Assembly: GCA_003557545.1 (NCBI GenBank)
Contig: PWOD01000049.1
Location: forward strand, 1 to 17,335
Reading direction: 5' to 3'
Length of the DNA stretch: 17,335 nucleotides
Origin: a bacterium
Lineage (GTDB): Bacteria; T1Sed10-126
The notes below the pieces were generated by a model. That model was not told where the DNA came from. It did no database searches and worked only from the letters and a program-made list of their open reading frames with translations. The position numbers and the translations under genes are program-made. Below are positions 1-4,182 of the stretch, piece after piece. Numbering within the stretch: the stretch's first letter is position 1; each line of letters starts with the position of its first letter.

Positions 1-202
1 CATGCGCCTGAGCCATACCACGTCCAGCCATTCTCATCTTTTCTGAAATGGCCAGTCCAGCGACGTCATCCGCGGCTCGATTAATCCTAAACCCACTTGC
101 CAATCGTTCCTGAGCTTCATTCAAAGATCGGTTAGTGAGGGCAATTTGTCGCTGTGCAAATGTAGCGGGTAAATTGTTGTTAACTCGAAATAAATCACTC
201 AT
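1..202 (-). CDS. hag: flagellin, N-terminal part (cut by left window edge)
   Basis: Only the first 67 codons lie in the window; the rest runs off the left edge. The product is a flagellin, the filament subunit exported through the flagellar type III apparatus. The visible part is the conserved D0/D1 helix: it opens MSDLFRVNNN and contains the flagellin signature ERLASGFRINRAADDVAG (residues 32-49). By hand alignment 45 of 67 residues match the complete flagellin at 2165-3058, so the two are paralogues. The ATG at 202 is preceded by GGGAGG about 8 bases upstream. That site can pair with a CCTCC just before it in the mRNA, so translation may be gated. A strong sigma-28-type promoter lies at 413-440, giving a leader of about 200 bases. 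The family call is firm. Whether this is a major or minor filament protein cannot be told. Confidence 0.93.
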   Translation of the reverse strand, partial: MSDLFRVNNNLPATFAQRQIALTNRSLNEAQERLASGFRINRAADDVAGLAISEKMRMAGRGMAQAH

Positions 203-2164: not shown

Positions 2165-3058
2165 CTAAGGCAGCAGCTGAAGAGCCATCATCGGTCTTTG
2201 CTGAGCCTGCAACAAGATAGCCATGCCAGCCTGGGTCAAAATGTGAGCCCGAGTCTGATTAACCGTTTCCTGGGCAATATCAGCATCCCGTATACGACTC
2301 TCAGCGGCCTCAACATTTTCCTCCTGAATACGGAGAAAATCAACAGTACTTTCCAACCGGTTCTGTAATCCGCCGACTCTGGCCCGCGTAAAGGATACCC
2401 GGTCTATGGCATTAGTAACAACTTCAATCGCCGATTCGGCCTGTTGACGGGTCAAAACCGGTAAAACCTCATCAGTCTCAAGATCACGCAAACCAAGGGC
2501 AGCCCCGGTGGTTGTTTGAATATCATTAATCGTCACTCTGATCACATCATCCCTGTTCGCACCCACATGAAACACCAGAGAATTCTGTCCCAGCTGATCA
2601 ACCTGACCATCATTTCCCATTAAACCAAAATCGTTTTTCAGCAACTGCCGATTATTAAACTGAACGGACGAAGCCGAACGATCAATTTCATTAACCAGGT
2701 CCGCTATTTCGGCGTTGATCATAGCACGCTCATTATCTGTCAGACCATCACTGGCCGCATCTATCGCCAACACACGAATACTCTGAAGATTCTCAGTGAT
2801 AGCATCCAGTCCACCCTCGGCTGTCTGTAATACAGAAATACCATCCTGAGCGTTAGCGCGCGCCTGTTTCAACCCTCTGTGGGTTGACCGCATCCGCTCA
2901 GATATGGCCAGTCCGGCGACATCATCCGCCGCCCTGTTTATCCTCAGCCCACTGGCTAATCTCTCCTCAGCCTGATTAAGCTGACGAAAATTTCTCGCCA
3001 TCGATCTCTGGGCAAAAGCGACCAGCATATTTGAATTAATCCTGAATAAATCACTCAT
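2165..3058 (-). CDS. hag: flagellin (complete)
   Basis: Filament subunit of 297 residues. The N-terminal D0/D1 region starts MSDLFRINSN and includes ERLASGLRINRAADDVAG. The C-terminal D1/D0 region runs from about residue 200 to the end (ESRIRDADIAQETVNQTRA... QAGMAILLQAQQ). The centre is short, so this is a minimal flagellin without D2/D3 domains, close to the size of Bacillus Hag. It lies directly downstream of csrA, the order known from Bacillus, where CsrA represses flagellin translation and FliW relieves it. The leader has two hairpins with GGA in the loop (3067-3081 and 3086-3109), the first covering the ribosome binding site AGGAGGGAG. No convincing sigma-28 promoter was found in the 399 bases upstream, unlike the left-edge paralogue. 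The N-terminus MSDLF- is a few residues longer than the usual flagellin start. Confidence 0.96.
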   Translation of the reverse strand: MSDLFRINSNMLVAFAQRSMARNFRQLNQAEERLASGLRINRAADDVAGLAISERMRSTHRGLKQARANAQDGISVLQTAEGGLDAITENLQSIRVLAIDAASDGLTDNERAMINAEIADLVNEIDRSASSVQFNNRQLLKNDFGLMGNDGQVDQLGQNSLVFHVGANRDDVIRVTINDIQTTTGAALGLRDLETDEVLPVLTRQQAESAIEVVTNAIDRVSFTRARVGGLQNRLESTVDFLRIQEENVEAAESRIRDADIAQETVNQTRAHILTQAGMAILLQAQQRPMMALQLLP

Positions 3059-3066
3059 GGTAAGTC

Positions 3067-3081
3067 ACTCCCTCCTGGAGT
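3067..3081 (-). promoter_or_regulatory. CsrA-type hairpin over the flagellin ribosome binding site
   Basis: The mRNA reads ACUCC-AGGAG-GGAGU: a perfect 5-bp stem with GGA in a 5-base loop, spanning the AGGAGGGAG Shine-Dalgarno sequence 9-12 bases before the flagellin ATG. This is the geometry of the B. subtilis hag BS2 site, where CsrA competes with the ribosome. Binding itself is inferred. Confidence 0.65.
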
Positions 3082-3085
3082 TTGA

Positions 3086-3109
3086 ACTCGTCTCATCCTT
3101 GATCCGAGT
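3086..3109 (-). promoter_or_regulatory. upstream CsrA-type hairpin in the flagellin leader
   Basis: The mRNA arms ACUCG (3105-3109) and CGAGU (3086-3090) enclose a 14-base loop, GAUCAAGGAUGAGA. The loop contains CAAGGAUG, which matches the core of the CsrA consensus RUACARGGAUGU. It stands directly upstream of the ribosome-site hairpin, so the two form a BS1/BS2-like pair for one CsrA dimer. Confidence 0.62.
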
Positions 3110-3141
3110 CGTAAAACTAAATTGAATCAACCACTCTACTT

Positions 3142-3200: not shown

Positions 3201-3380
3201 AAATAAAAGAATTATTATCCTCATCCAACTATCTTCAGCTGTAACTGTTGCTATCTCATGAGCCCTCAAATGCTATTTAAAAAAGAAAAACCTACTCCCC
3301 CTGACAGCAAAAAGCTGAACAAAATGGAATAGGCTAAATTAGTCGAATTATTGATTATCAAACCTCCATGTGAAAAATAT

Positions 3381-3410
3381 CAGGAGAAGCATCCTTGCTT
3401 CCCTATCCTG
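3381..3410 (-). terminator. hairpin behind csrA with an AAGGAU hexaloop
   Basis: The mRNA inner stem GAAGC/GCUUC closes the hexaloop AAGGAU. An outer stem CAGGA/UCCUG is separated from it by a 4-base bulge on one side. A short U-run (AUAUUUUU) follows, as in a weak intrinsic terminator for csrA. The loop with its closing bases, GCAAGGAUGC, is also close to the optimal CsrA ligand, which is presented as GGA in a hexaloop. It may therefore be a terminator, a CsrA-binding element, or both. Confidence 0.5.
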
Positions 3411-3420
3411 CTACATCCAC

Positions 3421-3449
3421 AGTATGCAACAGGATTTAAAAAAAGTCAA
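3421..3449 (-). promoter_or_regulatory. possible sigma-A promoter for flagellin (or a short RNA)
   Basis: Reading the minus strand, TTGACT (3444-3449), a 17-base spacer, then CATACT (3421-3426). The -35 element matches TTGACA in 5 of 6 positions and the -10 element matches TATAAT in 4 of 6. It begins just after the csrA stop. A transcript from about 3414 would start immediately before the GGA-loop hairpin at 3381-3410. Confidence 0.35.
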
Positions 3450-3457
3450 AATCTTTT

Positions 3458-3706
3458 TTAGATTTTTTTGTTTTTACTTTTATCTCGAATAAATTGGGCG
3501 GCTGATATGATCTCTTTTTCTGAGCTTTCAACCGCATTGATCGTCTCTTTTTTTATCTCCTCATAAACCTCATGACGGTGGATAGGAATATCCCTTGGTG
3601 CCTCAATTCCAATCTTCACCTGATCCCCCTCCTGCCCTACAATCATTATCTCAATATCATCTCCAATCATTATCTTTTCATCAATCTTACGAGTTAAAAT
3701 CAACAT
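3458..3706 (-). CDS. csrA: carbon storage regulator CsrA
   Basis: RNA-binding homodimer that represses or stabilises mRNAs by binding GGA motifs. The sequence MLILTRKIDEKIMIG at the N-terminus and APRDIPIHRHEVYEEI at residues 36-51 are family hallmarks. The RNA-contact residues L4, R6, H43 and R44 are present at their usual positions. At 82 residues it is longer than the roughly 61-75 usual for the family. The extra C-terminal helix ends in a lysine-rich tail (RDKSKNKKI). In Bacillus the C-terminal extension is the part FliW binds. The ATG follows the fliW stop by 2 bases, so the two are translated from one message. No clear Shine-Dalgarno sequence precedes it. Instead the start codon lies in AGGGAUGU, the core of the CsrA consensus, suggesting autoregulation. 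Identification is certain; autoregulation is inferred. Confidence 0.97.
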   Translation of the reverse strand: MLILTRKIDEKIMIGDDIEIMIVGQEGDQVKIGIEAPRDIPIHRHEVYEEIKKETINAVESSEKEIISAAQFIRDKSKNKKI

Positions 3707-3710
3707 CCCT
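3699..3710 (-). promoter_or_regulatory. CsrA consensus core covering the csrA start codon
   Basis: The mRNA around the csrA AUG reads UAGGGAUGUUGA. AGGGAUGU fits ARGGAUGU, the 3' part of the CsrA consensus, at all 8 positions. Only a weak 3-bp stem (AAC/GUU) flanks it, so a loop context is not well supported. Binding here would block initiation directly. Confidence 0.4.
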
Positions 3711-4182
3711 ACGTTCTACCTTCGGCCAGCAGATCCTCGCGGCCAGTCTTCTCAAGCTCGGCTAAAACTGAATGTCTAACAGTATAATTATCCACCTGAT
3801 TTATTACCTGTTTTCCAATATAATTATTCTGATTAATAATAATCGGACCCCGAAAATTTACAGTCATTTTTTCCGGATCCCGGGGAACCACAACAATCGA
3901 ATAGATAGCCAGATCCTCAGTTGAATTCGTTCCAATTTTTTTTAAATCGTCAGTTGAAATGGATAGTTTATATTGTGGATTTATCAGCTGTGGGCAAACA
4001 ATAACAAAGGCAAGATCACGATTCCCCAGGGCTTGAAGCCATTCAAAAGGTTGTTCTTCCTCTTTGCCGATTATCACATATTTCTCCTGCTCTTCGAAAC
4101 CAAACAGGCCATTTTTTATAGTCACTATTCGAGAATCATCAATCTCAATCTCACCATAAGGTTTAGACTCTATCTTTTGCAT
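3709..4182 (-). CDS. fliW: flagellar assembly factor FliW
   Basis: FliW binds flagellin when subunits accumulate, and otherwise binds CsrA and blocks its RNA binding, so flagellin translation follows filament export. The 157-residue protein fits the family. The N-terminal part has the strand-turn pattern YGEIEIDDSRIVTIKNGLFG. A core segment reads FEWLQALGNRDLAFVIVCP, the middle carries IYSIVVVPRDPEKMTVNFRGPI, and the end has the usual helix (VRHSVLAELEK). The ATG at 4182 has only a weak ribosome site (AAAGGG, about 10 bases away). The stop abuts csrA with a 2-base gap, an arrangement typical of this pair. The upstream 301 bases contain a possible sigma-28 promoter and two GGA motifs. Confidence 0.96.
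   Translation of the reverse strand: MQKIESKPYGEIEIDDSRIVTIKNGLFGFEEQEKYVIIGKEEEQPFEWLQALGNRDLAFVIVCPQLINPQYKLSISTDDLKKIGTNSTEDLAIYSIVVVPRDPEKMTVNFRGPIIINQNNYIGKQVINQVDNYTVRHSVLAELEKTGREDLLAEGRT

Follow-up and report, generated by a model that had tools for sequence, protein, structure and literature searches.

The flaA leader of C. jejuni contains two adjacent stem-loops (SL1 and SL2) with ANGGA loops, the second of which lies over the ribosome-binding site. These stem-loops have been footprinted and mutated, CsrA binding and repression have been measured, compensatory changes occur in relatives, and FliW acts as the CsrA antagonist (PMC4894983). In B. subtilis, the hag leader has two CsrA sites, one over the Shine–Dalgarno sequence, and fliW, csrA, and flagellin constitute a partner switch with FliW as the antagonist (PMC7652899, PMC8523840). 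For the C. difficile fliC leader, one of these sources gives the CsrA sites TGACAAGGATGT and CTAAGGAGGG, which resemble UCAAGGAUGA and CCAGGAGGG in the leader described below; these sites are predictions only, and a conserved intergenic RNA is not mentioned in the sections consulted (PMC8523840).

Here, we analyzed a 17,335-nucleotide stretch of DNA, referred to as the window, from a genome of 2,151,867 bases (G000) belonging to the phylum T1Sed10-126 (“Ca. Busufiota”). In a review, the phylum is listed with two genomes of 2.15–2.2 Mb from hypersaline soda-lake sediment (PMC11382960), and two MAGs of T1Sed10-126 have been reported from Odiel soils (PMC12942990). The only relative compared from the same order and phylum was G001; a scan of genome_contigs with a single flagellin protein confirmed no relative. 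A 16S rRNA was found in neither G000 nor G001.

Gene neighborhood and comparison with known systems

The genes on the minus strand are arranged in the order flgL, fliW, csrA, and flagellin, with a gap of 400 nt between the last two (Table 1), which agrees with an earlier reading of the sequence alone that had placed fliW-csrA upstream of flagellin. Both fliW and csrA are intact, and their products match FliW and CsrA chains of known structure, such as those of 5DMB. The CsrA protein can be aligned up to residue 64 with the CsrA chain of 5DMB and up to residue 70 with that of 1t3o, which is longer. Residue 55, which is important for FliW, is Thr in the CsrA of the window and Asn in B. subtilis and G001, a difference that counts against a FliW-relieved checkpoint here.

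The sequence-only reading had likened the locus to the BS1/BS2 pair of B. subtilis hag, and this arrangement was recovered, with two GGA-loop hairpins, the second over the Shine–Dalgarno sequence, and an adjacent fliW-csrA pair. The likeness to hag is one of anatomy and parts, between members of different phyla, and an RNA such as the one found here in the intergenic gap has not been described for hag. Compared with C. jejuni flaA, the stem of hairpin 1 in the window is longer and interrupted, and the fliW-csrA pair immediately precedes flagellin, from which it is separated by an RNA element.

Table 1. Positions of genes and predicted RNA elements in the window
Feature	Position	Strand	Sequence or basis
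flgL	5878-4484	-	named from sequence and place; Flagellin_N matches
fliW (157 aa)	3709..4182	-	PF02623, E 2.2e-36; 5DMB chain A, E 1e-20
csrA (82 aa, putative C-terminal extension)	3458..3706	-	PF02599, E 3.7e-25; PDB CsrA matches
Sigma-A-like promoter	3421..3449	-	TTGACT-N17-CATACT; TTGACA-N17-GATAAT at the equivalent place in G001
Conserved core of putative noncoding RNA (model R2)	3279..3404	-	
GGA hairpin of putative noncoding RNA	3386..3401	-	GAAGCA-[AGGA]-UGCUUC; R1 match 3354-3406
24-nt block	3354..3377	-	UUUUUCACAUGGAGGUUUGAUAAU; identical in G000 and G001; single copy
Putative terminator	3285..3335	-	AGCCUAUUCC...GGGGGAGUAGGUUUUU; terminator-like in both genomes
Hairpin 1 (BS1-like)	3085..3110	-	GACUCG-GA-UCA-[AGGA]-UGA-GA-CGAGUU; fold, covariation
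Hairpin 2 (BS2-like)	3067..3081	-	ACUCC-[AGGAG]-GGAGU; fold, kept in relatives
Flagellin (297 aa), proposed regulated gene	2165..3058	-	Pfam Flagellin_N, E 1.2e-36

Two GGA hairpins precede the flagellin start

Two consecutive stem-loops are located just 5′ of the flagellin start at 3058 (minus strand), with the sequence and position that had been claimed for them. The leader reads GACUCG GA UCA AGGA UGA GA CGAGUU CAA ACUCC AGGAG GGAGU GACUUACC AUG on the minus strand, and folding of its 57 bases, a check that the sequence-only reading had proposed for a 60-base leader, returned exactly hairpins 1 and 2 (-17.1 kcal/mol, z -1.9, with 10 of 200 shuffles as low). Hairpin 1 has the ACUCG/CGAGU arms described in that reading; the simple loop drawn between them was not borne out, in that the 14 nt enclosed hold a tandem GA/GA step and a 3-bp UCA/UGA helix that closes an AGGA tetraloop. 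A CARGGAUG-type CsrA motif is present within this hairpin. Hairpin 2 is as it had been described, with ACUCC/GGAGU arms and an AGGAG loop, and it sequesters the Shine–Dalgarno sequence AGGAGG (3076-3071, minus strand).

When approximately 50 nt of coding sequence were added to the fold, hairpin 2 re-paired with the coding region in the minimum-energy structure, and hairpin 1 persisted. This re-pairing is a mild weakness, and because of it, the support for hairpin 2 is more comparative than energetic.

A leader that is rich in GGA could form such hairpins by chance, and a single GGA hairpin was indeed obtained in 740 of 5000 dinucleotide-shuffled versions of the leader. Two non-overlapping hairpins, each with at least five Watson–Crick pairs and enclosing a GGA, occurred in only 13 of the 5000, and a search of both strands elsewhere in the 17-kb window gave one further twin site, inside a coding frame near 715 (minus strand). 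These counts uphold the earlier view that the pair is unlikely to be accidental. The probability that we assign to chance is negligible, because the covarying conservation among relatives that is described below already refutes this explanation.

Conservation of the leader in relatives

Seven leaders were aligned, including those of five flagellins of G001 and one flagellin of G029, a genome outside the phylum in which fliW-csrA is also found upstream of flagellin. All five G001 leaders have the same hairpin pair, with stems that differ in sequence, as exemplified by UCGAAUCA-AGGA-UGAUUCGA followed by AUUCC-AGGAG-GGAGU in one leader and GGGAUCA-CGGA-UGAUCCU followed by GCUCC-AGGAG-GGAGC in another. 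The G029 leader contains CGUGG-C-UCA-AGGA-UGA-A-CCACG and GAUUC-AAGGAG-GAAUC. Across the seven leaders, the structure was paired in 82.9% of the cells, compared with 74.1 +/- 2.3% after shuffling (0 of 500 as high), and the covariation score was 0.359, compared with at most 0.152 when the partner was slid, with the same outcome on a model-fitted alignment.

Six pairs have changed on both sides, one in hairpin 2 and the other five in hairpin 1. Of the two, hairpin 1 shows the stronger compensatory conservation; the 3′ arm of hairpin 2 is already constrained by the Shine–Dalgarno sequence. The sequence-only reading had looked to orthologous leaders for kept stems, compensated changes, and a kept loop GGA. 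The stems are kept, the bases of hairpin 1 vary with compensation, and its loop is ANGGA in all seven leaders (AGGA or CGGA), the GGA never being lost. The loop of hairpin 2 has a GGA in six of the seven; the exception is G001_48610, with the loop AUAGA.

Among the flagellin paralogues of G000, no clear copy of the hairpin pair was seen for those on C82 and C94 or for the gene at window positions 1-202, which weighs against the checkpoint proposed below. The gene at 1-202, a second flagellin that runs off the window start, has a stem resembling hairpin 2 over its Shine–Dalgarno sequence (CCUCC-AUAGA-GGGAGG, 226-211, minus strand), with a loop that lacks GGA and no clear hairpin 1.

A CUCC/GGAG stem without a loop GGA is therefore kept in two leaders, namely those of G001_48610 and of the flagellin at window 1-202, and hairpin 2 covers the Shine–Dalgarno sequence, as would be expected if the hairpins merely sequestered this sequence without CsrA, in the manner of an RNA thermosensor or an intrinsic translation damper. 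We consider this highly improbable: hairpin 1 lies away from the ribosome-binding site, and even so its loop is ANGGA without exception, with compensated variation in its stem, and csrA and fliW are adjacent.

Because the parts and the anatomy match those of the C. jejuni and B. subtilis systems, we conclude that the twin hairpins very probably represent a dual CsrA-binding site in the flagellin leader, forming a checkpoint that would be repressed by CsrA and relieved by FliW. The two loops, AGGA in hairpin 1 and AGGAG in hairpin 2, with 20 nt between the GGAs (21 nt in C. jejuni flaA), would be occupied by one CsrA dimer, which would cover the Shine–Dalgarno sequence and thereby block ribosome entry. 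While flagellin is being exported, free FliW would remove CsrA and translation would resume; when flagellin accumulates, FliW would be occupied and repression by CsrA would return. The sequence-only reading had gone as far as stating that this feedback operates in the lineage. The analysis bore out which genes are present and that the leader structures are conserved with compensation and positioned on the ribosome-binding site; from this, we infer that in T1Sed10-126 CsrA would bind and repress the leader and FliW would relieve the repression.

A putative noncoding RNA in the csrA-flagellin gap

The gap between csrA and flagellin contains a conserved element at approximately 3418-3279 (minus strand), or 3449-3254 (minus strand) with its promoter and 3′ block included, the counterpart of which in G001 is L043 5731-5910. 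This element is probably a noncoding RNA. Promoter-like and terminator-like elements are conserved in G000 and G001, and in both genomes, a GCAAGGAUGC hairpin is found 22–23 nt past the promoter, with compensated outer pairs (A-U to C-G and G-C to A-U). In shuffles, the longest match was 13, compared with the 24 nt of the block that is identical in both genomes. The block may fold as UCA-C-AU-[GGAG]-GU-U-UGA, and of the GGA hairpins of the RNA, one is strong and one weak. Just past the terminator, GGGCUCAUGAGA (3254..3265, minus strand) is identical in both genomes.

The covariance model R2 gave one match each in G000 and G001 and none in 384 other genomes, and its scores in the other FliW loci that were covered were not convincing. 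Searches of Rfam and of viral and plasmid sequences gave no match for the intergenic RNA. Three further candidates were rejected. Matches to a 22-nt block with up to three mismatches occurred in three other genomes, in each case within a coding frame or at its end; predicted base-pairing between the 24-nt block and the leader of flagellin (-14.2 kcal/mol in G000) fell in a different place in G001; and the frame of a short leader peptide behind GGAGG was not conserved between the two genomes.

One possible role, to which we give somewhat less than an even chance, is that of an attenuator or riboswitch-like flagellin leader, in which a ligand or CsrA would set terminator read-through from the sigma-A-like promoter. 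The terminator is located upstream of flagellin in the same orientation, no sigma-28-type promoter was found between the two in G000, and the conservation extends to the GGGCUCAUGAGA block past the terminator. An invariant block of 24 nt is typical of a ligand-binding core and was counted for attenuation. No alternative antiterminator pairing was evident in the folds, however, there is no Rfam family, and a metabolite switch would not need two GGA sites.

The RNA could also be a small CsrA-binding decoy that acts beside FliW, a tentative reading that we regard as slightly less probable than attenuation. It has an AGGA tetraloop hairpin with compensatory changes, a second GGAG that is possibly looped, and its own putative promoter and terminator, and it adjoins csrA. 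When the covariance model built from flagellin leaders (R1) was run on the whole window, the intergenic RNA was the second-best match (20.4 bits, E 8.4e-5), and in the csrA-flagellin gap, GGA occurs 14 times, compared with four on the opposite strand. The element is known from two genomes only, however; in G001, R1 gave only a local match of 4.4 bits, and GGA enrichment within the intergenic RNA alone was not significant there (P 0.125). CsrB/RsmZ-type decoys are likewise noncoding RNAs with GGA hairpins, but they have many sites rather than two clear ones, whereas the RNA described here lies beside FliW and has no sequence relation to them in Rfam. Taken to its full extent, the proposal that an RNA resembling the flagellin leader in build is encoded in the T1Sed10-126 gap as a dedicated CsrA decoy, and that CsrA would thereby be controlled by FliW and RNA antagonists from one locus, seems rather unlikely to us.

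Leaders of other flagellar genes

R1, whose training leaders are not independent because they are mostly paralogues of one genome, was also searched against 280 genomes. It recovered the training leaders, and the three best new matches included a flagellin leader in G120 and, in G001, the leader of flgD. The latter has a 9-bp hairpin, CUUGAGCCA-AGGA-UGGCUUGAG (L099 1501-1553; G001:C113:10126-10178), and the flgD leader of G000 has only a 4-bp CUUC-AGGA-GAAG hairpin approximately 40 nt upstream of the start. CsrA control may thus extend to the hook-cap gene flgD, which we regard as a lead and not as a result. The weaker R1 matches in other genomes were mostly within coding sequence, and we regarded these as chance.

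A boxA-like element (TTCTTTGAAAATTGAATACGGTCGG and relatives) was observed in four flagellin leaders, one in the window (372-348, minus strand) and three in L029 (G001:C104). The latter precede the flagellin starts at 43690, 46432, and 48610 by approximately 237, 126, and 163 nt, respectively. In two of the four leaders, a TAAA-N-CCGATAAT sigma-28-type promoter lies upstream of the element, with its CGATA 43 nt away. The sequence of these elements suggests NusB/NusE antitermination on flagellin transcripts.

Implications

The checkpoint proposed here for the candidate phylum T1Sed10-126 is most likely a known system in a new host phylum. Because similar leaders were found in two further lineages outside the phylum, the dual-hairpin leader would be either ancient or repeatedly regained. 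The flagellin checkpoint, its RNA anatomy unchanged, would now reach a phylum without a cultured member. The intergenic RNA is previously undescribed and is the part worth following. Joint antagonism of CsrA by FliW and RNA was left as an open point in a 2020 review (PMC7652899), and if the intergenic RNA were truly a decoy, this locus would be an example of both kinds of antagonist acting on CsrA.
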